A DNA stretch of 64,000 nt, from contig JAGVWC010000009.1 of the NCBI GenBank assembly GCA_018304465.1, positions 124,001 through 188,000 on the forward strand, written 5' to 3'. Shown here one piece after another: positions 5,829-56,060 of the stretch; position 1 is the stretch's first letter, and the number at the start of each line of letters is the position of its first letter. The DNA comes from Candidatus Iainarchaeum sp. Lineage in GTDB: Archaea > Iainarchaeota > Iainarchaeia > Iainarchaeales > JAGVWC01. The position numbers and the translations under genes are program-made. The notes below the pieces were generated by a model. The model was not told where the DNA came from. It searched no databases and saw nothing but the letters and a program-made list of their open reading frames with translations.

Positions 5829-7148
5829 GTGAATGGCGCCGTGGTTTCGGTCGGAGCAAAAACCTTATTGGGCGCCAGTTCCGAATTGTATTACGGAAAT
5901 TATCGTTCGCCACTGCCGATTAACAGCGCGGCCCGCCAAATCTCCAATGACATCATTGACCAGGTCGTCACGGAAAAACTCGCCCCGATCGGAACCCCGA
6001 TCAAGGATTCTTCCGGCGCCGTAATCGGAGCCGTCAAAGCCAGTGATCACGCGGAATTCCGAAACATCTTAAAAGACAAACTCGAACCCGCGATCAAGGA
6101 CGCGTTGGAAGAAAAAGGCGTCAAGAACCGCGTTCCGATTCCGGGCGCCGACAAAGTGCGAATCGCGTTAAACGATGAAAAACTCATCAACGAAGCCACG
6201 AGCACGGCGATCACGAAAGCCTCCGCGGATCTGGAAAAACCGCTGTCCGATTGGACGGTGTCGCATTCGAGCGTCTTCCAGGATCCCGTCAAGCTCGCCA
6301 AGCAAAGAGAACTCGTTTCAAGCGTCGTGGATTTATTCGGACAGGATCTTCCGCAAACCGGAAACGTCGTGGACCGGACCACGCTTGAACAAGTGTGGAA
6401 CCAGCGCATGCTCGACGACTTGAAGTCTTACGGTTTGAAAGAAACCGACTTGGTTGGAACCAAATCGGTACAGCGACTGGTCGAGGAAAAAGTCCGCGCC
6501 GGCGTGATCACGGAAGGAATGCCAGTCGGGAAAAAAGTCGCGATTCAGCCGGTGTACAAATTGTTGGATCCGAAGAAAACCTACGCGAGTGTCATCGGAG
6601 AAATTTATTCTAACGCGGAATTAGCCAAAAAACTGGATACGGGCTTTAAGGACCGTGCCGGAAAATTCGCCAAGGGATTGCTCGAAGGAAAAACCGGCGA
6701 AATCGGCGGGTTCACCCGATTCAGAAAATTCCTCGGTTCGATGGCGCGGGGTCTTGCGTGCGGTTTCATTTCGAACGCCGCGGGTCTTTGGATGTACAAA
6801 CAAGGATTGGCGGAAAACCTGAATCTGCCCGATGATAAGATCTCGGTTAAGGGACCGGCGAAAGTCAGTCCGACCGGTGGGTTGGTCGTGGACGGAACCG
6901 GAAACATCAACACGGACGCGGAGCTCTTGCGCGGACACACCTACAAAATCGTGTCGAAAAAAACCGACGACAAAACGCGTTCGATTGAAATCACGAAAGT
7001 CGCGAATATTTCGGAGCTGTCAAAGGTCCCCAAAGACGCCTGGCTTAACACGGATTGCACCGGAAAATTCGGGCAAAAAGACTTAAGCGAAGTCCTCAAC
7101 GCAAAGGCGCTTGTGGGCGTAAACCTCTCGTCCACGAGAGCGTCATAA
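5829..7148 (+). CDS. C-terminal part of giant surface protein P1 (frameshifted continuation)
   Basis: A GTG at 5829 opens a 439-residue frame, but the same frame is already open upstream: from about base 5766 it reads GPSTTPTDPLKAQAQEDIV directly into the annotated start. It therefore looks like the continuation of P1 after loss of one base around 5769-5785, where the GGG run could originally have been GGGG. The product is mostly helical and polar, with one hydrophobic stretch near MARGLACGFISNAAGLWMY. It has no signal peptide and no ribosome site at 5829, which also argues against an independent gene. The next gene begins 10 bases after its stop, so the region is probably transcribed as one unit. 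Confidence 0.75.
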   Translation: MNGAVVSVGAKTLLGASSELYYGNYRSPLPINSAARQISNDIIDQVVTEKLAPIGTPIKDSSGAVIGAVKASDHAEFRNILKDKLEPAIKDALEEKGVKNRVPIPGADKVRIALNDEKLINEATSTAITKASADLEKPLSDWTVSHSSVFQDPVKLAKQRELVSSVVDLFGQDLPQTGNVVDRTTLEQVWNQRMLDDLKSYGLKETDLVGTKSVQRLVEEKVRAGVITEGMPVGKKVAIQPVYKLLDPKKTYASVIGEIYSNAELAKKLDTGFKDRAGKFAKGLLEGKTGEIGGFTRFRKFLGSMARGLACGFISNAAGLWMYKQGLAENLNLPDDKISVKGPAKVSPTGGLVVDGTGNINTDAELLRGHTYKIVSKKTDDKTRSIEITKVANISELSKVPKDAWLNTDCTGKFGQKDLSEVLNAKALVGVNLSSTRAS

Positions 7149-7158
7149 AAAAGAGGCA

Positions 7159-10100
7159 ATGGTTCAGGTCACTTGGGTGAACGCGATTGGAAAAATACTT
7201 ACGATTCCTTTTTTTGTATTAATCATTAGCGGCTTTTTGTTTTTTCTGGTTTCGCAAACCAATCTGCTTTCAAACCAAAATCCAATAATTGACCAAAATG
7301 AGCAAGTCTGTGGAAACCGTGTTTGTGAATCCAACGAAAACAGTTTTACTTGTTTGTTGGATTGTTTTGCATGTAACGAAAACGGAACCTGTGAAACCGA
7401 GATTGAAGAAAACGATTACTCATGCGAAAAAGATTGTCCGATCAGGGTGTGCAATAATGACGGAAAATGCGATCCGAAAGAAAGCCCAACCGATTGTCCA
7501 ATCGACTGCGAACCAAAAACCGGCCCGTGCATCAAAGACGGATTCTGCAACAAAATCATTGGCGAAACAGTGGAAATGTGCCCGGAAGATTGCACGGTCT
7601 TGCCCCCGGCATGCGGAGACGCAAAATGCAACGGTTCCGAAACCTGCTTTGGTTGCCAAACCGATTGCGGTTCCTGTCCCTTCAATCCAACATGCGGAAA
7701 CAACATTCCTGAAGGAACCGAAGTGTGTGACGGAACCGCATTAAACGGTCAATCCTGTCAAACCAAAGGATTCGCAAGCGGAATTCTAACCTGCTTTTCC
7801 TCTTGCGATGATTTTAACACCGTCAACTGCGCGACACCGCTTCCACCTTGCGATGAAAACTGGAGCTGTGGACAATGGTCTACTTGCTCGAGCAGAGTAC
7901 AAAACCGAACCTGTACTGACACCAACGGATGCAGCACCACCATTGAACAACCCGCCTTAACCCAAACCTGCAATAACGCGGTATGCGGAAACAACTTTCG
8001 CGAAGAAGCGGAAATCTGTGACGGAACCGATTTGAATGGGCAAACCTGTCAAAGTCAAGGATTCGCCAATGGCAACGTGGCTTGCGCAACCAACTGCCAG
8101 TCATTCAACATGACAAACTGCGTCGGCGCTTCAAACGTCGAATGCGGAAATGGACTCATTGAAACCAACGAAGCTTGCGACGATTCCGACACCTCGTCCG
8201 GAGACGGTTGCAGTTCGAGTTGTCAAGTCGAATCCGGATACTGGTGCACCCGTCAACCGAGTATTTGTCAAGCCGGCGCCTGGGCCGCGCCCATCGGAAT
8301 TCCAACCCCCGGATTCGGAATCGAAGAAACCTACCGAATCTACGACGACCCAACCCACCGGAATCCGGGCGTACACTACACTCAAAACGAAGAAGGGGGA
8401 TACTACACGCATTACATCGATGCGACGCGTTTGACAGCAACGGATGTGGACAACCCGTTTGGATCCGTTTCAAAGCCCCGCAAAACTATTCCAAGAAACC
8501 TGTCGGCTGGAAGCGTCGTCGAGATCCATACCAGTACGCTTGCGAACTATCAAAGCAGGATCGTCGTGTCCGGTGAAGGAACGCCGCTGCAACCGATTTT
8601 TATTCGAGGACCCGATTCTTTGCACAAACCGGTTTTGAACAACACGGTGGAAGTCGGATTTATCGATCGAAACGGAAGGTACATCATCATTGAAAACCTG
8701 GACGCCCCTCACATTTCGATTCGGTCAAGAGGCGTAGACGATTACAAGGCCGATCACATCGCTGTTCGGCATTCCGAGATTCATCATGGCTCGGGAACAA
8801 GTGCAAATGCCTATTCTTCCGACATCGTGATTTTCAATAACCATATTCACGATGGGGGCGATTGGACTGCGGATTATGAAAGCAACGTGTCCGGTGTTTC
8901 GGCGGGTTCAAACACCCTGCGAGTCTGGATTTTGGATAATGACATTCATCATTTCGGAAGCGATTCCATGATCATCAGCGGTGCGGGGGTGTTGTACGAA
9001 AACGCCGCTCGTTTCATTTACATTGGACGGAACAATTTGCATCACAACGGCGAGAACGCGGTTGATGTCAAACGTGCGCGTGATGTCATCATTTCCCAGA
9101 ACACGATCCATGATTTTCGCGAACCATACGCGGTCGGCGGAAGCGCGGCGAGCCGCCCGGGAATTGTTATTCACGATCGTCCGGAAAACGTTTGGATTTT
9201 GTTCAATCGTTTTTACAATATTGGAAACGCGGTGACCGCAGCAACCGAACGGGGAACGTTGGCCATGATTGGAAACGTGGTGCAAGAAGGGGGCGATAAC
9301 CGACCCATTGTCCAGCTGAGCGCCGGCGATAGTGACCTGGGTTACAAGAGCAAGATCATTTTTGCGCACAATACGTTGTTCAATGTGGCCAACGGGCTGT
9401 CCTTAGGAGGAAACGACACGATTTCCGTTGGCGGAAACATCATTGACGGCATCAGTCAAAATTCTAGCAGCCAGCACATCCGATTCTCGGGGCCCGTGGA
9501 CAGTCCGTGGAACCTGAATTACTCTTTGTTCGGCGGCCCCGGCACGAAAGCCAAGATCGGCTGGGGAACCTCGGTTTCTCGCGATGTTGTAACACTTGGA
9601 CAGGATTATTCCGGACAATGCGCCGGCTGTCTGGAAACCAGCCCCCAATTCGTCAATGCTCCGTTTTCCAGTGTTTGGGTGGATACGTTTTTCAAAGCAA
9701 CGTATTCGAATGCGGAAATGACCGAAATCAATCGCACCGGTGTCCCGGATTCCGCCCGCATCCGAACCACACTGCGAGTGCCAGGGCAGGATTTTTCCGC
9801 GGTGGGAATTCGAATCGGAGATCATGTGAAAATGAACAGCGGAACGGGCGTGGTTACCTCTTTACTTTCAACCGACAATCCCAACCTCAAGATTGGTGCA
9901 ATCAATGGTGACACCCTTACGCTGAACCGAGACATTACCCTTTCGCCTTCCTCGGACGTATCGTTTTCGGTTTCGTATTATCCAACCACCCGAACCGACG
10001 TGTATCTTGCGGACGTATCCGGTTTTGCTGTGGGGGACAAGGTAGAATTTGGAAACGACAACGTCGCACGCACCGTCTCTGCCATCACAGCGGACAGCAA

Positions 10101-40010: not shown

Positions 40011-40131
40011 TGCAGGGAGGCGGATTCGAACCGCCGAACGCACTAAGCGGCCGGCTCGTTCCAATTTTTCGCAGAATATTTCACGAAAAACTGCCTGAAG
40101 CCGGGAGGTTTGACCGCTCCCCAATCCCTGC
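40011..40131 (-). tRNA. tRNA-Leu (anticodon CAG) with a 37-base intron
   Basis: Exons read on the minus strand: acceptor GCAGGGA/TCCCTGC, a leucine-type D arm, anticodon stem CCGGC/GCCGG with loop TTCAGG-A, a long variable arm (CCGCTTAGTGCGTTC) and T arm GGCGG/CCGCC with loop TTCGAAT. The discriminator is A. The intron (40057-40093) follows position 37, the canonical archaeal site, and can form a TTTTTCG/CGAAAAA helix. The 5' exon and part of the intron are also the 3' end of the endonuclease frame 40081-41157. Confidence 0.93.
40057..40093 (-). other. Archaeal tRNA intron in tRNA-Leu(CAG)
   Basis: 37 bases between position 37 and position 38. The internal helix TTTTTCG/CGAAAAA with flanking exon pairs allows a bulge-helix-bulge structure for the tRNA splicing endonuclease. 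Exact cleavage points could shift by a base or two. Confidence 0.8.
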
Positions 40132-41157
40132 AAGGGAAAACAAGAGGTTTAAACGATCCTCTCGTTTGGGCAAATAATTCGCTACCAGAACATCTTTTAA
40201 CCTTTTTATCTGGGATTTTGGGATCGAAAAGTCATTTTGGATATATTTGCCGTTCTTTAAGTGGGTTCCGTAATATTTGGCTTCAACTCCGTTTTTCTCC
40301 AGAAGAATGAGCAAGTCGTCTATGAGTCGCTTGCTTCTGAACGTGCATCCCATTCCACGGCCATGTTTTCCGATATCGCTGTCGATTAAGCCGGAAATAA
40401 ATGGAATCTGCTCTCGCACAGGCAATTGTTTAATTGTGTCCGGGATGCATGCTTTTTCGCTTTTTTTTCCACTTGGAATTCCAATAATGTTTACAAAGAA
40501 TCTGTAGAGCGCCTTGTTTGCCTTGCGCAGATCCCACGAAGGCCAATGGCTGTCCTTATATTGAAATGAAATTCGATTAATCTCAAACAATTTGAAAAAA
40601 ATTGGCGATACTTTGTCCTGTAAAAACTCTTTTTGGCTACTTGTAAGAATTACAACAAAAGCATTGTTTCCATCCCGCCCATATTTTTTAACCGAAAAAC
40701 AGCCGTCGCCCATAAGAATTCCAGTTAAATAAAGCAAGTCCGGAGAAAGCTCCTTTGGAATTCGAATAACCTCCTGAGTCGTGCTCGAAACATAGTCAAT
40801 CTGCTCAGCTAGTTCAGTCAGTTCCTTTTCTTCAATGAAAAATTTCAGCTTTTCGATTGCAATCAAAGGGATTGAAGCCCTTCCGCAGAACCAGTCTTTG
40901 AAAACACATTGCTTAATCGGATATCCTATTTTTTCGGCCCATTTTTTTCGCCACGAGAATCCAGTTTTTTTAACCAGTCTTTGATCGATATTCCGAATCT
41001 TTTGAACAATCGGGATCGCTTTGGTATTTCGGATCGTCGGGTTTTTGCAGTACTTTGGCAATATTGTATATACCCTCAGACACCTGCGCAGAGTGGTGTC
41101 TTCCGCAGGAACATGTAAACGAAATATATCCAAAGTCATGCAAAAAATACAGTTCAT
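40081..41157 (-). CDS. LAGLIDADG homing endonuclease overlapping tRNA-Leu
   Basis: Up to 358 residues. Two LAGLIDADG motifs are visible: LTGILMGDGCF (~143-153) and FISGLIDSDIG (~253-263), each followed by the expected beta-sheet region, so it is a single-chain two-motif enzyme that cuts a long DNA site. An N-terminal helical region (~40-110) could be a DNA-binding extension. The start may be ATG 41157 or ATG 41139. The last 17 residues are encoded by the 5' exon of tRNA-Leu(CAG) and part of its intron; the TGA lies in the intron. The tRNA intron itself is too small to contain it, so the gene sits next to the tRNA and not inside its intron. It appears intact. Confidence 0.88.
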   Translation of the reverse strand: MNCIFCMTLDIFRLHVPAEDTTLRRCLRVYTILPKYCKNPTIRNTKAIPIVQKIRNIDQRLVKKTGFSWRKKWAEKIGYPIKQCVFKDWFCGRASIPLIAIEKLKFFIEEKELTELAEQIDYVSSTTQEVIRIPKELSPDLLYLTGILMGDGCFSVKKYGRDGNNAFVVILTSSQKEFLQDKVSPIFFKLFEINRISFQYKDSHWPSWDLRKANKALYRFFVNIIGIPSGKKSEKACIPDTIKQLPVREQIPFISGLIDSDIGKHGRGMGCTFRSKRLIDDLLILLEKNGVEAKYYGTHLKNGKYIQNDFSIPKSQIKRLKDVLVANYLPKREDRLNLLFSLAGIGERSNLPASGSFS

Positions 41158-45322: not shown

Positions 45323-46207
45323 TTAAATGATGCTGGTCACGCTCCTTGCGTTGTAAGGTTGGTTGTGTTGGTGTGCGGCTAGTGCCAGCACCAGCATGCT
45401 GGTGCAGCACAACAAACAGTGTTGGGTGACTTTGGGTAGGCCGCGGACTGTGAGACTGTCGAGGTTGAACGAGAGTTTGCTTCGGCTGAAGCATCGTTCT
45501 ACGCTTGTTCGTTCGTTGTACTTTTTTGGGAGTGCGTGTGTTCGGTTTCTGGAGGCGGTAATGGGTTTTGCTCCGTAGTGGATGATGCGGTTGTAAAAGT
45601 CGGTGGTGTAGTAGGCGGCGTCTCCGAGCATTGTGCGCAGTTTGGTTCGGATCACCAGTAGCGACTTGTCAAGGAGCGGGACTGCGTGTTTGGCGTCGTT
45701 GTCTTTTCCAGTCGAGACCAAGACGGCAACGGGTAGTTCGGTTTTGGTGTCGCAGAGTATGTGTTCTTTGTACCCGTAAAACACTTTCTTTTTGGTTTTA
45801 TGCCCAAAACTCGCGTCTCGATCGGATTGCACGTGTCGGTTGGAGTACGCTTTGAGATGGGTGGAGTCGATGGCTAAAGTGTCGGCGGAGACGATGTTTT
45901 TGTGAACGAGTTCAGTCACGAGTGGGTGGAATATGTCTTCTGTTTTGTCACCGAGTCGTTTGCGGAAAACGCGAAACGTGGAGTGGTCGGGTACGCGCGG
46001 CAAGCCGCAGGCGCGCACCCAATAGGGCCGTTTGTGTAACTCGCGTTCAAGTTCCCGTTCTGACCGGATGCGTTCGATTCGTTGGAGTATTAAGGCTTTC
46101 AGCAAGCCAAGCGGAGGCAGTCGAAACTCCGAAACCTGCGTCAGCAGGTGCTCCAGCACCTGCACAGGTATTTTAACAGCCTCCAAAACCATAGATATTG
46201 GGAGCAT
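45323..46207 (-). CDS. IS4/IS5-type DDE transposase
   Basis: 294 residues. The N-terminal domain has the pattern LPPLGLLKALILQRIERI and then PDHSTFRVFRKRL, as in IS5/IS1182-like transposases. The catalytic triad is visible: Asp in LAIDSTHLKAYS, Asp in LGDAAYYTTDF and Glu in NERTSVERCFSRSK with the flanking Y/R residues of the C1 signature. No frameshift, so probably active. ATG 46207 has a strong ribosome site GAGGTGA seven bases upstream, but both lie within a hairpin (46198-46241). Confidence 0.92.
   Translation of the reverse strand: MLPISMVLEAVKIPVQVLEHLLTQVSEFRLPPLGLLKALILQRIERIRSERELERELHKRPYWVRACGLPRVPDHSTFRVFRKRLGDKTEDIFHPLVTELVHKNIVSADTLAIDSTHLKAYSNRHVQSDRDASFGHKTKKKVFYGYKEHILCDTKTELPVAVLVSTGKDNDAKHAVPLLDKSLLVIRTKLRTMLGDAAYYTTDFYNRIIHYGAKPITASRNRTHALPKKYNERTSVERCFSRSKLSFNLDSLTVRGLPKVTQHCLLCCTSMLVLALAAHQHNQPYNARSVTSII
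45388..45405. repeat. 18-base perfect palindrome inside the transposase gene
   Basis: GCACCAGCATGCTGGTGC is its own reverse complement. It lies in the 3' part of the transposase gene, near one end of the IS. It may be chance in a codon run for Leu/Ala/Ser or a structural element. Confidence 0.6.
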
Positions 46208-46321: not shown

Positions 46322-47335
46322 ATGCAAAAGAATAATGCCGGTCCGATGCTATTGGGGATTGGCGTTTTGGTTTGCGTTGTGATCGCGGGTTTTTTTCTCA
46401 ATCAAACAGAGCTTAACGTGGATGATTTGTCGTCTTTTTCATTTGAGGTCACGATGGCCAAAATTCTTACCGTGAAGTTTGTTTTGTTCTTGGTGTTTCT
46501 TGGAATGGTCGGAGGAATCACGGGCGGAGCCATCGGAGTGTTGCCAAAGAATGCGATTCATGCGGGAACCCTTATCGGCGGTTTGGTCGGAGCGCTCATT
46601 GCGCACATCGCGTTTGATTTTTCGTTTTTTTTGATTCCCATCGTTGCGATGCTTTGGGGTCTTGCGGCGGGAATCGAAGCCGGTGTTTCCAAACGCGAAG
46701 AATACAAATCGTTTGTTCCGGCGCGAACGGCCATGTCGGTCGCAGGCACGATGGGAACGTTTATCGCCGTAGGTTTGTTGCTGTGGGGAATTGTCGCGCT
46801 TTCCCCGATTCAAAACCAGTTATCCGACCGGTTTATCGGTTCGGTGCTGAACATGGGCCTTGGAAACATGGGACCGGATTCGGAAGTGGATCAGCTAAAA
46901 ACCGCGTTGGCTAAAAACTCGGCCCGGGTTTCGGTTCAGAGTCAAACGATGCTGTTGACTCAAATCATGTCGACGCCGGCGTTTAATGATTTGCGTTCGA
47001 ACCAGGACCAGAAATCCCGCGTGTTCGTGGCCACCATGGAAGGGACATTGGATCAGGTATCGTCTTCGGAATATTTGCAACGCTTTGAGGAAGAATTCGT
47101 GAAAGATGCCCAGAAAATCGAAGTGGAGGTTCCGCAGGTAAAAAGCACGGTCGTGGACCTGTTTAATCAGAATCCTTTTTTCAAAGCCATGATGGATCAT
47201 TTGGCTTTGGTGGTTTCCATCAGTTTGTTGATCTTGTTTTTGACTTTGAATTCCCTGATTATTCGTCCGGTGGGAGCGCTTTCCGGCTGGGTTTTCAACC
47301 AGGCGTTTGAATCCCTAAAAAATGCCCCAAAGTAA
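46322..47335 (+). CDS. Polytopic membrane protein with external helical domain
   Basis: 337 residues. Hydrophobic helices: ~8-27, ~50-72 (Gly-rich, VFLGMVGGITGGAIGV), ~80-95, ~98-118, ~138-160 and a last one at ~296-315. Between the last two lies a ~130-residue polar helical domain (SEVDQLKTALAKNSARVSVQ). No family recognised. The next gene is trkH, 45 bases downstream in the same orientation, so the two could be co-transcribed; a link to potassium transport is only suggested by that. Confidence 0.7.
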   Translation: MQKNNAGPMLLGIGVLVCVVIAGFFLNQTELNVDDLSSFSFEVTMAKILTVKFVLFLVFLGMVGGITGGAIGVLPKNAIHAGTLIGGLVGALIAHIAFDFSFFLIPIVAMLWGLAAGIEAGVSKREEYKSFVPARTAMSVAGTMGTFIAVGLLLWGIVALSPIQNQLSDRFIGSVLNMGLGNMGPDSEVDQLKTALAKNSARVSVQSQTMLLTQIMSTPAFNDLRSNQDQKSRVFVATMEGTLDQVSSSEYLQRFEEEFVKDAQKIEVEVPQVKSTVVDLFNQNPFFKAMMDHLALVVSISLLILFLTLNSLIIRPVGALSGWVFNQAFESLKNAPK

Positions 47336-47380: not shown

Positions 47381-48850
47381 ATGGCGTTCCCTTTTTCCGG
47401 TGCGGATTTTAGAATCGTTTTCCGCGATGTTGGAAACTTGTTGCAGGTGTTGGCGTTGGGGTTTTTGTTCCCGGCAGCCATCGGCGTTCTGTTGGAAGAA
47501 CCCGCGTTCAATATCATTTCGTTCGTCTTGGCGGGGGTTGTTTGTTTTACCATCGGACGCGCCTTGTTTGAGTGGGTCAAATCAAGCGGCGAAACCACGT
47601 TGCGGCATGCATTGGTGATCTCCGCGGTGGTTTTCGGTTTGTACACTTTTTTGGCGGCCGTGCCGATCATGTGGGTTTTGCGGGTTTCGTTTTCAAACGC
47701 TTTTTTTGAAGCCATGTCCGCAGTGACCACCACGGGTTTGTCGGTATTGGGAAATCCCGAGATTCTTCCGCAAAGCGTGTTGTTTTGGAGAAGCTTTTTG
47801 GGTTGGATCGGAGGAATCGCCGTTGTTTTGATGGCAATGATTGGTATTTTTTCGACGTATTCGCGTGCCACCCGGTTGCTTAAGACAACGAACCGCGAGG
47901 AGCGGGTGAAATACAATTTTCGTCAGACGTTTGCCAGCATGTGGAAAACGTATCTTTCCTTGACCGCGCTTGGAATCATCCTGCTTTTGCTTTTCGGAAT
48001 GGGTTTGTTTGACGCGGTGAATTATTCAATGAATGCGATTTCGACCACGGGTTTTGACTCGACCTTGGCGGGCGTCGCGGGGTTTGACAGCCGCTGGATC
48101 GAATCGACTTTGATTTTGCTCTCGTTGCTGGGTGCCACGAGTTTTTTCGTGCATTATGCGGTGCTGAACAAGAAAATGCTGGATGGGTACGGCGAGGATA
48201 CCCAGTTCAAAGGAATGCTTTTGCTTGGGATCGCCGGGTCATTGTTGTTGTTTTCGGGTTTGAGTTCGGTTTCGTTTTCGTTTAAGCAAGCCGTGGAGTA
48301 TTCGCTTTTTTCGGCCGGAAGCGCCGTGACCACCGCGGGTTTTTCGGTGGTGCGACCGATTGCTTCGCTTGGAGAGTTTTCAAAACTTGTGTTGATCGGG
48401 CTCATGCTGATCGGAGGAAGCGCGGTTTCGACGGCGGGTGGAATCAAGGTGAACCGGGTGTTGATTTCGCTTCGGTCGTTCTGGGATCGTTTGGTTTTGC
48501 GGATGCGCGGAACACGCAAAGAGGGTTCGGTTCATTTGGATCATCATTTGGTGTCGGAATCCGAAGTCGGCGAGGTCAACCAATTCATTATCTTATATAT
48601 ACTGGTGGCGTTGGCGGGCGCGATTCTCCTCGTTCTTGCCGGAAACACTTTTGACGATTCCTTGTTCGAAGCCGTTTCGGCCCAAGGAAACGTCGGTCTT
48701 TCAAGCGGAATCACCCATGCTGCAATGCCGTTGTTTTCCAAGATCGTTTTGGTGCTTTTGATGTGGATCGGCCGTCTTGAGATTATTCCTTTGTTTGCAG
48801 GGGTCGGCGTATTGGTATGGGCCGCGACAAACCGGAAGGAAAGAAAATGA
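47381..48850 (+). CDS. trkH: TrkH/KtrB-type potassium channel subunit
   Basis: 489 residues; ATG 47381 is preferred over TTG 47372. It forms the potassium-conducting part of Trk systems in the cytoplasmic membrane. Four pore loops are recognisable by their filter sequences: MSAVTTTGLSVLG, ISTTGFDSTL, GSAVTTAGFSVV and AQGNVGLSSG, each with the conserved filter Gly, between paired transmembrane helices. Length and order are normal. No TrkA (NAD-binding regulatory) gene is adjacent; the gene upstream is an unknown membrane protein. The downstream gene overlaps its stop by ATGA. Confidence 0.93.
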   Translation: MAFPFSGADFRIVFRDVGNLLQVLALGFLFPAAIGVLLEEPAFNIISFVLAGVVCFTIGRALFEWVKSSGETTLRHALVISAVVFGLYTFLAAVPIMWVLRVSFSNAFFEAMSAVTTTGLSVLGNPEILPQSVLFWRSFLGWIGGIAVVLMAMIGIFSTYSRATRLLKTTNREERVKYNFRQTFASMWKTYLSLTALGIILLLLFGMGLFDAVNYSMNAISTTGFDSTLAGVAGFDSRWIESTLILLSLLGATSFFVHYAVLNKKMLDGYGEDTQFKGMLLLGIAGSLLLFSGLSSVSFSFKQAVEYSLFSAGSAVTTAGFSVVRPIASLGEFSKLVLIGLMLIGGSAVSTAGGIKVNRVLISLRSFWDRLVLRMRGTRKEGSVHLDHHLVSESEVGEVNQFIILYILVALAGAILLVLAGNTFDDSLFEAVSAQGNVGLSSGITHAAMPLFSKIVLVLLMWIGRLEIIPLFAGVGVLVWAATNRKERK

Positions 48851-49548
48851 AAAAAAAAGGTGGCCGATCAAAGTCCCGTTCCAATAGCCGGAAAAAAACG
48901 GTTTCGTCTTCTGGGCAAAAGCGAAAAAAATTTAGGCAAAAAGCCGTTGTCCGTGCGCTAATTTCTACCCCTGAAATTCAAAAGACCTTGGCGCTTCCAT
49001 CCGGATTCGTTCCGTGGATCAAAAGACTGGAAAACGGTTTGAAAGAAGCCGAGCACAACAACCGGTTTGATTTTTTGCGCCCAATGCCCAAAATAAAGCT
49101 TCATTCGCAAGTGTTTCTTGGCGAAATCGTTTGGGCGACGCACGAAGAATCGATTCGCTTCGGGAATTTTCCGCCTGATCCCAAATTGGTGTATGAAGGG
49201 CGTTCGCTTTCGCGTTTGCCGGTTTCGTTTTCCATGCTTCAAACCCTAAAATCCGATGGATTGGTGTCGGATCAGGACATCAACCGGTTTTTGCTCGGGC
49301 CCGCATCAAAACAAACCGTTGGAGATTATTGCCGGATTCGTTCGGCGTGGTATCGCCACGCGTATGACGAGTTATCCAAAAAAGATTTTTTTGGGGATTT
49401 ACCGATTGATGGACAGCGCGATTTGTTGATTGCCGCGTCGCGAAACGAACAAAGCCTTTTGGAAGTGTTGAGTCAAAACGAAAAATTACCCATCCAGCTG
49501 GATCGCTATGTGTCCAGCATTAAAAATTATTCGCAATGGTTTGATTAA
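48847..49548 (+). CDS. Hypothetical protein with highly basic N-terminus
   Basis: 233 residues from ATG 48847, which overlaps the trkH TGA (ATGA) and has GGAAGGAAAG just before it; a longer frame from 48817 is less likely. Residues 1-35 are almost only Lys, Arg, Ser and Gly. The rest is soluble and helical, with no motif I recognise (VGDYCRIRSAWYRHAYDELS). The operon position suggests co-translation with TrkH, but nothing in the sequence shows a role in transport. Confidence 0.65.
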   Translation: MKKKGGRSKSRSNSRKKTVSSSGQKRKKFRQKAVVRALISTPEIQKTLALPSGFVPWIKRLENGLKEAEHNNRFDFLRPMPKIKLHSQVFLGEIVWATHEESIRFGNFPPDPKLVYEGRSLSRLPVSFSMLQTLKSDGLVSDQDINRFLLGPASKQTVGDYCRIRSAWYRHAYDELSKKDFFGDLPIDGQRDLLIAASRNEQSLLEVLSQNEKLPIQLDRYVSSIKNYSQWFD

Positions 49549-49561
49549 GAGCGGATTTGAA

Positions 49562-50410
49562 ATGACGAAACCGGTTTCACGCAGAGGGTTGTTCAAAAGA
49601 GCCGTCGCGGTCGGAGCGGGATTTTTTTTGGGAAAAAAAGCGTTGAATGCCAAGCAGCCCAAAAAAGAACAGCCGCGCCAACCAGTTCAAACCAAACGCC
49701 GCGAACAGCAAAAAACCGCTCGTCCAACAGCCGCGCGACCGGCCACGCGTCCGGTCAGAAGACCGTCGCGCATTTTGCCAAGACGCGAAATTGAGCGGTT
49801 AATCGACCAACACTCACAATTTGTTCCGGCGGGTTATCCGCGGGAGCTTTTGATTCGACAGATTTTTACCGAAACCAACCGCGGAGACGCCCATGCCTAT
49901 GGAAGCGCGGGAGAAATCGGTTTGATGCAGATCAAGCCGTCTGTTCTGGCGGATTTGCAAAGAGCGAATATGCTTCCCCGGCGCGGAATTACAGCGGAGG
50001 ATTTGTTTGATCCGGCCGTGAACATTCAAGTGGGCACATCGTATATCGGGTGGATTTGGAGATATGTTCGTCCGATGGGAAAGCGGGAGAATTTTACCCA
50101 AGCGACTCCCGATGAGCAGATTGATTTTGTGTTGGGTGCCTATAACCAGGGGATCGGAAGGATTGAACGGAAAGGCATCACGCCTTTGGCTGCCGAATAT
50201 ATTCGTCGCGTGCGGCAAACCACCCGATTACCGCCGTTAGAGGCTCCAACCAACCAATCGGCACCCGCTACGGGATCACGCCCTGCTCCCCAAACGAGGC
50301 CCGCCACGCGACCGGCGCCTTCAAGCGGCCGGTTGGTTCAACCCCGAATTGCGAGTAAAACAGGCGCAAACGCCCCTAGAAAAGGGTTTTTAAAACAAGA
50401 ACGTGCTTAA
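49562..50410 (+). CDS. Tat-exported lytic transglycosylase (SLT domain)
   Basis: 282 residues from ATG 49562. The N-terminus MTKPVSRRGLFKRAVAVGAG is a twin-arginine signal: SRRGLFK followed by a hydrophobic stretch. A Pro/Arg/Gln-rich linker (~35-78) precedes the SLT/goose-lysozyme fold (~80-220). The catalytic Glu is in FTETNRGDAHAYGSAG, followed by EIGLMQIKP, the usual GLMQ motif, and later GAYNQGIGRI (AYNxG motif). These enzymes cleave the glycan strand of peptidoglycan, which archaea lack. A low-complexity Pro/Ala/Arg tail follows. It lies 13 bases after the preceding gene. It is probably of bacterial origin and used outside the cell; target unknown. Confidence 0.88.
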   Translation: MTKPVSRRGLFKRAVAVGAGFFLGKKALNAKQPKKEQPRQPVQTKRREQQKTARPTAARPATRPVRRPSRILPRREIERLIDQHSQFVPAGYPRELLIRQIFTETNRGDAHAYGSAGEIGLMQIKPSVLADLQRANMLPRRGITAEDLFDPAVNIQVGTSYIGWIWRYVRPMGKRENFTQATPDEQIDFVLGAYNQGIGRIERKGITPLAAEYIRRVRQTTRLPPLEAPTNQSAPATGSRPAPQTRPATRPAPSSGRLVQPRIASKTGANAPRKGFLKQERA

Positions 50411-50544: not shown

Positions 50545-50616
50545 GGCGGCCATGGTGTAATGGTAGCATCGAAGCCTGTGGAGCTTTGGGACCGGGTTCG
50601 ATCCCCGGTGGCGGCC
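50545..50616 (+). tRNA. tRNA-His (anticodon GTG)
   Basis: Anticodon stem GAAGC/GCTTT with loop CTGTGGA and T arm CCGGG/CCCGG with loop TTCGATC. The discriminator is C (50616), and a G at 50545 supplies the extra G-1 that histidine tRNAs need. The acceptor GCGGCCA/TGGCGGC has one G-G mismatch at 3-70. The hisS gene begins 52 bases downstream. Confidence 0.92.
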
Positions 50617-50637
50617 CTTTTGATTCAAACCCAAGAA

Positions 50638-50643: not shown

Positions 50644-50668
50644 ATGGGAAAAAGAACAAGTGATTCAC

Positions 50669-51919
50669 ATGGCTTCGAAATTTCAAACGGTTCGCGGAAT
50701 GCGGGATTTTTTGCCTGCGGATTGCCGGAAAAAAAAACAAGTGGAAGCGGTTTGCCGCGAAGTATTCGCGTCTTTTGGTTTTGAACCGCTTCAAACTCCG
50801 GTAGTGGAGCCGTTCGAATTGCTTTCGGCCAAAGGCAGCGCCGGAGAAGCCATCAAAGACGAAGTGTACTGGTTTAAGGACAAAGGAGACCGAGAAGTGG
50901 GTTTGCGGTTTGATTTGACGGTTCCGCTGGGTCGCGTGGTCGCGTCGAATCCCCAGTTGCCAAAGCCGTTCAAGCGGTATCAAATCGGAACGGTGTACCG
51001 TTATGATCGCCCGCAAGCCAAGCGGTACCGCGAGTTTACGCAGGCGGATGTCGATATTGTCGGAGTGTCGGATGTAACCGCGGAGTTTGAGATTATTGCG
51101 ATCGCGGTTAAAATCATGCAGCGGTTGGAACTGGATTTTTTCATCAAATTGAATTCGCGTCCGGTGCTCGAGCGAATCGCATTGAAATGCAACGTGAAAA
51201 AAGAGCAGATTCCAGATTGTTTTCGTTTGATTGATAAGCAGGACAAGTCGGATTGGAAAACGATTGACGCGGAATTAAAACAAAAAGGAATCGACCCGAA
51301 GATCGCCAAGGTTTTGCAGGAAAATAATCTTGTTGAAATCGAAAAACTGGTGGGACGCGATCCGTCGTTCGAATCGTTGTTGGGTTTGATGGAATTGCTT
51401 TCCGAAAGTGGGTTGGATAAATTTGTCAAGCTTGATTTCGCCTTGGCGCGCGGACTGGATTATTATACCGGAACCGTGTTCGAGGTGTCATCCGAAAACA
51501 CGACGGTTGCGGCGGGCGGGCGATACGACAAACTTGTGGAACAATACGGAGGACCCGCGACTCCGTGCGTTGGAATTTCGTTTGGCGTGGACCGGTTGTT
51601 TGATTTGGTGTCGCAGCGATGGGTGTTGCCAGCCGTTTCCCGAGTGCTGGTCGTGTGTCTTGATTCCAAGCAACAAGGCTATGCGTTCAAAGTGGCGGAA
51701 TCGCTTCGAAAAGCGGGAGTCAACGTGGAATCGGATTTGCTTTTCCGAAACATCGGGAAAAACATTGAGTATGCCGTCAAAAAAGGCATTCCGATGTTGG
51801 CGATTGTGGGAGAAAACGAAGCCAAAGAACAAAAGGTGACTCTCAAAAATTTGGCGAAAAAAACCCAGTTTTTGGTTCCTTTATCCCAAGCGGGGTCGTT
51901 TTTGGCGAATTCCAATTAA
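50669..51919 (+). CDS. hisS: Histidyl-tRNA synthetase
   Basis: 416 residues from ATG 50669; the in-frame GTG 50660 is too close to the TATA box. A class II synthetase that charges tRNA-His. Visible motifs: GMRDFLP at the N-terminus, motif 2 region RYQIGTVYRYDRPQAKRYRE and FTQADVDIVG, histidine-binding motif ALARGLDYYTG, motif 3 region CVGISFGVDRLFD, and a C-terminal anticodon-binding domain (~325-416). Length is normal. It lies directly beside its substrate tRNA gene. Confidence 0.96.
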   Translation: MASKFQTVRGMRDFLPADCRKKKQVEAVCREVFASFGFEPLQTPVVEPFELLSAKGSAGEAIKDEVYWFKDKGDREVGLRFDLTVPLGRVVASNPQLPKPFKRYQIGTVYRYDRPQAKRYREFTQADVDIVGVSDVTAEFEIIAIAVKIMQRLELDFFIKLNSRPVLERIALKCNVKKEQIPDCFRLIDKQDKSDWKTIDAELKQKGIDPKIAKVLQENNLVEIEKLVGRDPSFESLLGLMELLSESGLDKFVKLDFALARGLDYYTGTVFEVSSENTTVAAGGRYDKLVEQYGGPATPCVGISFGVDRLFDLVSQRWVLPAVSRVLVVCLDSKQQGYAFKVAESLRKAGVNVESDLLFRNIGKNIEYAVKKGIPMLAIVGENEAKEQKVTLKNLAKKTQFLVPLSQAGSFLANSN

Positions 51920-51977
51920 AAGCTTTTCTTTGGCCAAATTGGTTGGTAAATGGTTCTTTTCGATTAAAGACTTTTGG

Positions 51978-52051
51978 GCCACAGTAGCACAACCTGGTGG
52001 TGTTCGGCATTGGTAATGCCGAGGTTGGGGGTTCAAATCCCCCCTGTGGCT
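51978..52051 (+). tRNA. tRNA-Thr (anticodon GGT)
   Basis: Acceptor GCCACAG/CTGTGGC is perfect, anticodon stem CGGCA/TGCCG has loop TTGGTAA, and T arm GGGGG/CCCCC has loop TTCAAAT. The discriminator is T and CCA is not encoded. Its 3' end is overlapped, on the other strand, by the last codons of the endonuclease gene 52033-52770. Confidence 0.95.
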
Positions 52052-52770
52052 TTCCATTCAGTAATTTTTTGAATGTTTTTGGGGTTTGAAAATCCGATCA
52101 ATCGCTCCCACCGTGAAAAATTTTTCGCCCCATAAAGAAAGATTCTCCATGTTTCACAAGGGGTGTTCGTCAGATAGTGATTTTGCAATTGGCGCGTGAT
52201 TGAAAAAGTAAATCCGTTCACTTTCAATACTTCGCCAACTTTGTAAATCAATTTTTTACTCTTACTGGTAATGTCCAAGCGGGGATACGGACGCGCTTTT
52301 TTGTTTCGATTAACAAATCGTAGGTACCCATCTGTATCGAAGAGACCTCGCAGGAAATCAAAAATATACGGACTTCCAAAAAGCATTCCCGAAATCTGAA
52401 TATTGTCCTTTCGGCCAATCGGAAAACCGATTGATCGTTTAAACTCGCATAATCCTTTGGACGTGGCATAACACCCAAGACAACTATGACCATTCCGAAT
52501 ATGCAGGTTAAGGTTGTATATTTTTTTGTACAAAGGAACAAGTATATTATCGATATAGTCGCGTTCCTTTTTACTTGAAGCAATTTCGTAAATGTATTTT
52601 GTTCCCCAAATCGATTTTTTAATACTCAGATATCCATCGCCCGTATGAATTCCCATTTCTTCTGCCAACTCGTGTGTCATGAATTCGGGAACAGAAAGTC
52701 CTTTTTCAATATCTGTTCGAGAGAGATTCACGGTAATCGTTTGATTCTGTGAATTTAATATCGGAAACAT
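52033..52770 (-). CDS. LAGLIDADG homing endonuclease overlapping tRNA-Thr
   Basis: 245 residues. Two LAGLIDADG-type motifs: ELAEEMGIHTGDGYL (~34-48) and FDFLRGLFDTDGYLRF (~137-152), with acidic residues at the catalytic positions, so a compact two-motif enzyme. Late aromatic segments (WRIFLYGAKNFSRWERLIGF) are typical of the second half. The final ~6 codons run antisense into the acceptor and T-arm end of tRNA-Thr(GGT). The tRNA has no intron, so the gene is free-standing beside it. The reading frame appears intact. It is more AT-rich than its neighbours, a sign of transfer. Confidence 0.88.
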   Translation of the reverse strand: MFPILNSQNQTITVNLSRTDIEKGLSVPEFMTHELAEEMGIHTGDGYLSIKKSIWGTKYIYEIASSKKERDYIDNILVPLYKKIYNLNLHIRNGHSCLGCYATSKGLCEFKRSIGFPIGRKDNIQISGMLFGSPYIFDFLRGLFDTDGYLRFVNRNKKARPYPRLDITSKSKKLIYKVGEVLKVNGFTFSITRQLQNHYLTNTPCETWRIFLYGAKNFSRWERLIGFSNPKNIQKITEWKATGGI

Positions 52771-54456: not shown

Positions 54457-55284
54457 ATGTGGGGCATTGCGTTTTTGCTTTTCCTGGTGTTAACGGTACT
54501 TGGTTTTTTGGTTCACCCCGCGATCGGAATCGTTTTGGTTATCGTTGACTTGGTGTTTATTCTCGTTTCGATTCGCGTGATTATGGAGTATCAGCGCGGA
54601 GTGGTTTTTACCTTCGGAAAGTTTACGGGTAATCTTTCGCCGGGTTTTAATCTGGTTGTGCCCGGAGTCCAGCGTATTGCCATGGTGGATTTGCGCGTTC
54701 GCGTGGACGATGTTCCGGAACAATCTCCAATCACCAAAGACAACGTGTCGCTAAAAGTCGATGCCGTGATTTATTACAAGATTCTTGAGGAAAAAGCTCA
54801 GGATGCCATTATTGAAGTCGAGGATTACCGGTACGCGGTAAGCCAGTTGGCGCAAACCACGATGCGAAACGTGATCGGAAACATGCTGTTGGATGAAGTG
54901 TTAAGCAAACGAGACGAAGTCGCGAACAAGATTCGTGAAGTCGTCGAAGTCGCGTCCGGAAAATGGGGCGTAGACGTGGAAGCCGTAAAGCTTCGATTGA
55001 TCGAATTGCCGGAAGAAATGAAACGCGTCATGGCGCGTGCCGCGGAAGCCGAGCGAATCAAGCGCGCGGCGATTATCAAGGCGTCCGGTGAAGCCCAGGC
55101 GGCTCAGATTGTTTCCAAAGCCGCGGAAACGATTGCAAGCGTCGAAGGCGGATTGAATTTGCGTACGATTCAAGGATTACAACAGATTTCTTCGGATCCG
55201 TCCAATGAAGTCGTGTTCTTTGTTCCCATTGATACGATTAAGCCGCTCGAAGGATATCCCGAAGCCAAGGAGGGAAAAAAATGA
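54457..55284 (+). CDS. SPFH/stomatin-like membrane protein A
   Basis: 275 residues. One or two N-terminal hydrophobic helices (residues ~4-42) anchor it. The SPFH (band 7) domain follows: YQRGVVFTFGKFTG, PGFNLVVPGVQRIA, VDDVPEQSPITKDNVSLKVDA and the YRYAVSQLAQTTMRNVIG segment. A coiled region rich in Ala/Glu (AEAERIKRAAIIKASGEAQA) promotes oligomerisation. Such slipins form ring- or raft-like assemblies that organise membrane proteins. No NfeD-like protease partner gene is adjacent. Its stop overlaps the next start (ATGA), so the two SPFH proteins are translationally coupled. Confidence 0.93.
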   Translation: MWGIAFLLFLVLTVLGFLVHPAIGIVLVIVDLVFILVSIRVIMEYQRGVVFTFGKFTGNLSPGFNLVVPGVQRIAMVDLRVRVDDVPEQSPITKDNVSLKVDAVIYYKILEEKAQDAIIEVEDYRYAVSQLAQTTMRNVIGNMLLDEVLSKRDEVANKIREVVEVASGKWGVDVEAVKLRLIELPEEMKRVMARAAEAERIKRAAIIKASGEAQAAQIVSKAAETIASVEGGLNLRTIQGLQQISSDPSNEVVFFVPIDTIKPLEGYPEAKEGKK

Positions 55285-56060
55285 TTGTCGAAACCCTTCT
55301 TTGGATCATTGTCTTTATCATCGTTTTCTTTTTGTTTGGTTCGCTAAAAATCGTGAACCAGTACGAACGCGGAATAAAATTTACATTGGGTCGTTATGCG
55401 GGCATTATGGAACCGGGAATCAATTGGGTGGTTCCGATTTTCCAATCCTGGATCCGAGTGGACATGCGAACCATTGTTCGCGATGTTCCGCGTCAAGACA
55501 TCATGACCCAGGACAACGTTTCCGCGATCATTAACGCGGTCGTGTATTACAAAGTCGTCAAAGCGGATTTAGCGGTTTTGAAGGTTCAGGATTATCATTT
55601 CGCGATTTCACAATTGGGTCAAACCTCCATGCGCGACGTGATCGGCGAAGTGAGTTTGGACGAATTATTGGCCAAACGCGAGTTAGTTGCCGGAAAAATC
55701 CGCGAGATTTTGGACAAAGCGTCCGATCCGTGGGGAATCAAGGTTGAAGCCGTGGAATTAAAAGAAATCATTTTGCCCGAAAGCCTGATCCGCGTGATTT
55801 CGCTGGAAGCCGAAGCCGAGCGCGACAAGCGCGCCATCGTGATCAAGGCGTCGGGAGAATTCGAGTCCGCCAAGAACCTCGCGCAAGCCGCCAAGGAATT
55901 GACGCGCGTCAAAGGCGGAATCCATTTGCGCACCCTGCAAACGATTAATTCGCTTTCAACCGAAAAAAGCAAAACCGTCGTGTACGCGATTCCAAGCGAA
56001 TTGCTCAAGAGCATCGATATTCGCGTATTGGATTTTTTCAAGGAAATGAAGAAAAAATGA
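55281..56060 (+). CDS. SPFH/stomatin-like membrane protein B
   Basis: 259 residues, a paralog of protein A: N-terminal helix (~3-21), YERGIKFTLGRYAG, PGINWVVPIFQSW, VRDVPRQDIMTQDNVSAIIN and the AEAERDKRAIVIKASGEFES coiled region. It begins at the ATG overlapping the stop of protein A and probably forms mixed complexes with it, as known for other paired SPFH proteins. The C-terminus is short and basic (FFKEMKKK). A 45-base repeat linked to a mobile-element relic begins 43 bases after its stop. Confidence 0.93.
   Translation: MIVETLLWIIVFIIVFFLFGSLKIVNQYERGIKFTLGRYAGIMEPGINWVVPIFQSWIRVDMRTIVRDVPRQDIMTQDNVSAIINAVVYYKVVKADLAVLKVQDYHFAISQLGQTSMRDVIGEVSLDELLAKRELVAGKIREILDKASDPWGIKVEAVELKEIILPESLIRVISLEAEAERDKRAIVIKASGEFESAKNLAQAAKELTRVKGGIHLRTLQTINSLSTEKSKTVVYAIPSELLKSIDIRVLDFFKEMKKK

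Follow-up and report, generated by a model that had tools for sequence, protein, structure and literature searches.

A predicted lytic transglycosylase with a twin-arginine leader in an archaeon of the Iainarchaeales without detected Tat genes

Introduction

A gene for a soluble lytic transglycosylase (SLT) preceded by a twin-arginine leader lies within a 64,000-nucleotide stretch of a contig of Candidatus Iainarchaeum sp. (JAGVWC010000009.1), which is referred to here as the window. Its presence in an archaeon raises the questions of what such an enzyme would act on, how it would leave the cell and where it came from. The initial annotation, made from the sequence alone, had answered them with Tat export, bacterial walls as target and a bacterial donor of the domain. 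These three proposals fare differently when the locus, the protein and its relatives are analysed.

The gene and its archaeal context

The open reading frame at 49508–50410 of the forward strand is real, and its first ATG is found at 49508. The ATG at 49562, which gives a protein of 282 residues, is the better start, because it lies 14 bases past the stop codon of the upstream gene and places the leader at the N-terminus (Table 1).

The gene is located on a 190-kb contig of an archaeon with a small genome, and the window also holds genes for a type II methionyl aminopeptidase, a family B DNA polymerase and hisS. Gene order in the window matches that of G063, a metagenome-assembled genome from another family of the same order, in which the methionyl aminopeptidase gene, homologs of the genes at 46322 and 48817, tRNA-His and hisS are arranged with a few other genes interspersed. 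The exception is the SLT gene, placed between the 48817 gene and tRNA-His; in G063, which has no SLT gene here, tRNA-His and hisS come immediately after the 48817-type gene. Since the neighbours keep the order of G063, a bacterial chimera at the SLT locus is very unlikely, and the location of the enzyme on archaeal DNA is borne out. The SLT gene was either gained at this locus or lost in G063.

This difference from G063, adjoining a tRNA gene, could also mark the gene as a lysis gene of a mobile element or virus that was parked here recently, as a transposase is encoded nearby (45323–46207) and PHROG endolysin and tail families match the protein. Such an origin is nevertheless highly improbable: no virus-like neighbours are seen around the SLT gene, viral and phage collections give one IMG/VR and two phage matches, all weak (27–33% identity), and small SLT genes occupy stable places in other families.

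Table 1. Features of the SLT gene and its surroundings in the window.
Feature	Position	Strand	Basis or remark
Upstream gene	48817..49548	+	14 bp before SLT gene; homolog in G063, paralog in own genome
CDS, 282 aa, leader-bearing SLT/GH23 lytic transglycosylase	49562..50410	+	Pfam match, motifs
Leader MTKPVSRRGLFKRAVAVGAGFFLGKKALNA	49562..49651	+	Tat-like by sequence: RR, Gly-rich h-region, basic c-region
Twin-arginine motif SRRGLFK	49577..49597	+	
Basic Arg/Pro-rich linker, probably disordered	49652..49783	+	Low model confidence
E104 codon	49871..49873	+	Putative catalytic Glu by profile alignment; Thr105 register in some pairwise alignments
Pfam SLT match, PF01464 positions 26–104	49880..50173	+	
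GEIGLMQIKP motif, residues 117–126	49910..49939	+	
Pre-AYN insert VRPMGKRENFTQATPDEQIDF	50066..50128	+	Comparison with SLT proteins of the order and bacterial relatives
GAYNQG motif, residues 192–197	50135..50152	+	
Basic Arg/Pro/Ala-rich C-terminal tail	50237..50407	+	Low model confidence
tRNA-His	50546..50617	+	
hisS, conserved neighbour	50660..51919	+	69% identity to the G063 copy, of which 164 aa are available

Identity of the enzyme

The SLT domain (PF01464) is recognised with an E value of 5.2e-11 and 42.6 bits, above the cut-off of 21.3, and scores 87–91 bits with profiles made from about 50 sequences of relatives. The GLMQ and AYN motifs of SLT/GH23 enzymes are intact (GLMQIKP and GAYNQG), and E104 occupies the catalytic-Glu column, with the top posterior class, in two profiles from relatives. 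Of the three hallmarks on which the initial annotation had relied, GLMQ and AYN therefore stand, and the Glu is probably in place. Two departures are found around the Glu: a Thr replaces the near-invariant Ser that follows it (ET instead of ES), and one additional residue separates it from GLMQ, for which reason the local Pfam match starts just past the Glu. With some alphaproteobacterial proteins, pairwise alignment without gaps brings Thr105 to the Glu position; loss of the catalytic residue was considered and set aside in view of the two profiles. E104 is thus the putative catalytic residue, with some doubt, and the one-residue shift likewise leaves some doubt on catalysis.

The AlphaFold model, built on 29 sequences, has a mean pLDDT of 71.6, which rises to about 90 across most of the SLT domain. 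Foldseek comparison of this model to the PDB gives MltC, MltE and Slt as top matches (E 1.5e-4 to 1e-3; TM 0.56–0.63 on the MltE length), and the lysozyme-like fold of the Slt/MltC/MltE group is present in the predicted structure. A sequence search of the PDB with the protein alone as query found nothing, and a search with a profile retrieved GH23 enzymes, g-type lysozymes and chitin-active enzymes. SLT is the only domain found in the protein, and none of the known wall-binding domains was recognised. Past the leader, Arg (34) and Lys (11) together outnumber the acidic residues (21). Compared with GH23/SLT enzymes such as MltC and MltE of E. coli, Slt70 and Slt of P. aeruginosa, the window protein has the same domain, predicted fold and GLMQ and AYN motifs, but it differs in its archaeal host, short domain, disordered basic flanks, pre-AYN insert, ET for ES and the additional residue before GLMQ.

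It could be argued that the protein is intracellular and freed only by lysis, or that it is a degenerate pseudo-enzyme. The intact GLMQ and AYN motifs, the assignment of E104 and the conservation of the relatives, whose positions are kept, make this quite unlikely, even if the Thr after the Glu, the one-residue shift, the strongly basic character and a leader with Sec-avoidance-like charges in a genome without Tat would all agree with it.

The leader and the export machinery

The leader contains SRRGLFK, a short Gly-rich hydrophobic stretch and KKALNA, which confirms the twin-arginine signal of the initial annotation. The Tat consensus and the Sec-avoidance features used for judging it are those described for bacteria, where basic residues after the hydrophobic stretch (here KKALNAKQPKK) hinder Sec export, and where more than half of the E. 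coli Tat leaders are able to engage Sec (PMC7317946). The strict motif [ST]RRx[FL][FL][KR] occurs as an N-terminal leader in the organism's own genome in the window SLT protein only; none of ten further matches genome-wide is N-terminal on a plausible leader-bearing gene. A relaxed RR scan of a 331-kb sample, made up of stretches of two contigs, adds one more, a paralog of the 48817 gene.

The initial annotation had also called for a check of Tat genes. Profile searches detect neither TatC nor TatA in the own genome (92% complete, 15 contigs), and a TatC profile derived mainly from the order's own TatC gives no match there at E values up to 10; SecY is present. TatC is found in 4 of the 75 genomes of the order, and of the 93 relatives, 9 have TatC and 8 have TatA above the cut-off. 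These absence calls look sound, since seven genomes of the order and class encode TatC, and six of them have TatA next to it on the same contig; in G050, TatC stands alone. The TatC of G050 is encoded on a 5.7-kb contig (C46), and the other five sampled genomes of the genus are without TatC, so that it represents either real patchiness or a binning error. With both components absent from a 92%-complete genome, and Tat rare in the order, the proposal of Tat export is not upheld. Lack of Tat together with absence of the active residues had been named as what would speak against the annotation as a whole; the former is observed, while the residues are present.

The window protein is not alone in this mismatch. 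Canonical RR leaders are carried by the SLT proteins of the window, G015 (two), G041 and G067, and by the products of the G063 homolog and the own-genome paralog (contig C11, 34746–35435) of the 48817 gene, and none of those found in the SLT and 48817-type proteins belongs to a genome with detected Tat. G015, G041, G063 and G067 (78–92% complete) lack both TatC and TatA. In the remaining small SLT proteins of the order the pair is KR or RK, or is missing.

Three ways out of the cell can be considered: Sec, Tat with genes that several assemblies all happen to lack, which is unlikely, or another reader of the leader. That the protein is a Tat substrate after all, with tat genes lying in the missing 8% of the assembly or too divergent to be seen, would be in line with the match of the leader to the Tat consensus, basic c-region included, with the sporadic occurrence of Tat in the order and with an assembly that is incomplete and split into 15 contigs. 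This is unlikely, given that the searches with TatC, TatA and the lineage-tuned profile all fail although Tat is readily detected in the group, and that the four other genomes with canonical leaders lack it too; if all five had Tat, the chance of missing it in every one by incompleteness alone would be about 1e-5, a rough figure obtained from the completeness values.

Another possibility, rather unlikely as well, is that RR leaders in Tat-less members of the order use a different, undescribed route, or are uncleaved membrane anchors. A mostly Tat-less order would then be keeping canonical RR, Sec-avoiding leaders on a few exported proteins, which, if true, would imply that these cells can recognise an RR leader in the absence of TatC. 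The appearance of such leaders on two unrelated families (SLT proteins and 48817-type putative lipoproteins) in Tat-less genomes, several of them also with basic residues past the h-region, points in this direction; against it, the examples are few, the KR, RK or missing pairs of the other small SLT proteins suit a merely basic n-region, and there is no candidate machinery. In genomes of this kind, Tat export should not be concluded from a twin-arginine leader by itself. What deserves further attention is that leader and export machinery do not fit together; the proteins listed here form a small set on which export of RR leaders by Sec or by something else can be tested.

The 48817-type family comprises the window gene (48817–49548) and the genes L135:4464–5141 and L134:4747–5436. 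The RR leaders of the G063 homolog (TRRGFLKKTGLGLGLVLGAKGC) and of the own-genome paralog (GRRTVLRTVVSAAIVMPLGC) have a lipobox-like Cys past the hydrophobic stretch, whereas the N-terminus of the window copy is basic and lacks such a stretch. Another protein of the own genome (L125:3–347, minus strand, contig C5) shows a basic leader with a bacterial-type lipobox, RLRLAKALMSAGLLAAGCAPVY.

Distribution and origin of the SLT proteins

SLT domains are found in 20 of the order's 75 genomes (21 of the 93 relatives) and come in two sizes, as large surface-type proteins and as proteins of about 250–360 aa with a leader. The small SLT gene lies, in three genomes of family f10, between genes for a YchF/OLA1-like GTPase and an RFC-large-subunit-like protein, names which we read from the sequences; the SLT genes of G015, G041 and G067 have other neighbours, common to these three. 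This keeping of place in one group and sharing of neighbours in the other argue for retention and not for chance. All ten small SLT proteins compared have the catalytic Glu. The pre-AYN insert is common in kind to the SLT proteins of the window, G067, G032 and G035; the bacterial relatives compared lack it or have a shorter one. G015 has two SLT genes in tandem (L127:6148–6984 and 7116–7982), both with RR leaders, and in one of them AYN reads AYR, as in G041.

In the domain tree, a weak one because the domain is short, the window protein groups with the small SLT proteins of f10 with moderate support (90/84), and the SLT domain of the window has no bacterial sister. A forced single clade of the window protein with those of G015, G041, G067, G032 and G035 is neither rejected (p 0.26) nor demonstrated. 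A scan of 84,980 genomes, whose search patterns favour some families, gave no close bacterial donor among the matches listed; the best relatives among them are 27–38% identical, with short segments up to 52%, and are scattered over many phyla. The bacterial donor expected initially is thus not recovered as a recent one, which was rejected on these identities, and the domain groups within the order. An enzyme that is old in the order and maintained by the lineage is the best reading of these comparisons.

Proposed role and relation to known systems

On balance, the evidence favours an old, lineage-maintained GH23 enzyme, established in the chromosome, that would act on bacterial murein and is probably exported or anchored by Sec. 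Murein made by the organism itself was considered as substrate and rejected: the only Mur-ligase-M match in the own genome reads as FolC-like, and no murein-synthesis set is seen. Bacterial walls, the target named in the initial annotation, are hence the most plausible one. Murein ranks first among the candidate substrates, but not alone, because GH23-type relatives include g-type lysozymes and chitin-active enzymes, and chitin-like substrates are possible.

In the proposed mechanism, Sec would target the protein to the membrane, where the leader would be cleaved or kept as an N-terminal anchor. The SLT domain would then be located outside the cell, where its basic Arg/Pro-rich flanks may bind it to anionic surfaces, and would cut the MurNAc–GlcNAc bond of bacterial murein, which could serve feeding on, attacking or attaching to bacteria. 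The RR motif would either be left over from a Tat-dependent ancestor or form a basic n-region tolerated by Sec. The ability of many E. coli Tat leaders to engage Sec speaks for this route, and the basic residues past the hydrophobic stretch speak against it. Delivery by a contractile injection system was also considered, and it was rejected as its sheath protein (PF04984) was not found.

Large murein-like lytic-transglycosylase proteins have been described in Woesearchaeota and Pacearchaeota (Castelle 2021, PMC8204110; Vigneron 2022, PMC9723730), and DPANN transglycosylases have been proposed to act on bacterial walls (PMC8204110, PMC9723730). They share with the window protein a lytic transglycosylase domain in DPANN, but they reach 3,000 aa, whereas the window protein has 282 aa and an RR leader; both large and small sizes occur in its order. 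Two haloarchaeal peptidoglycan hydrolases have been shown to be bactericidal (Strock 2025, PMC12352652) and share with the window protein, a putative murein hydrolase, the archaeal host and a leader. That survey required a catalytic and a wall-binding domain, so that the window protein, which has no wall-binding domain, falls outside its definition, and the two enzymes tested have Tat leaders in Halogranum, unlike the window genome, where Tat is not detected. Murein hydrolases of archaea and of DPANN are therefore already published, and the window enzyme adds to a known kind. Its odd feature is the twin-arginine, Sec-avoiding-looking leader, which recurs in Tat-less archaea. The occurrence of murein-cutting enzymes in episymbiont-like archaea is a sign of contact with bacteria, and not with archaeal hosts only.

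Other genes of the window

A LAGLIDADG-type open reading frame (52033–52770, minus strand) overlaps the end of the tRNA-Thr gene (51977–52052), and a second LAGLIDADG-like one is found at 40081–41157. Two SPFH/stomatin-like genes lie in tandem at 54457–56060, and a single gene of G046 is related to both.
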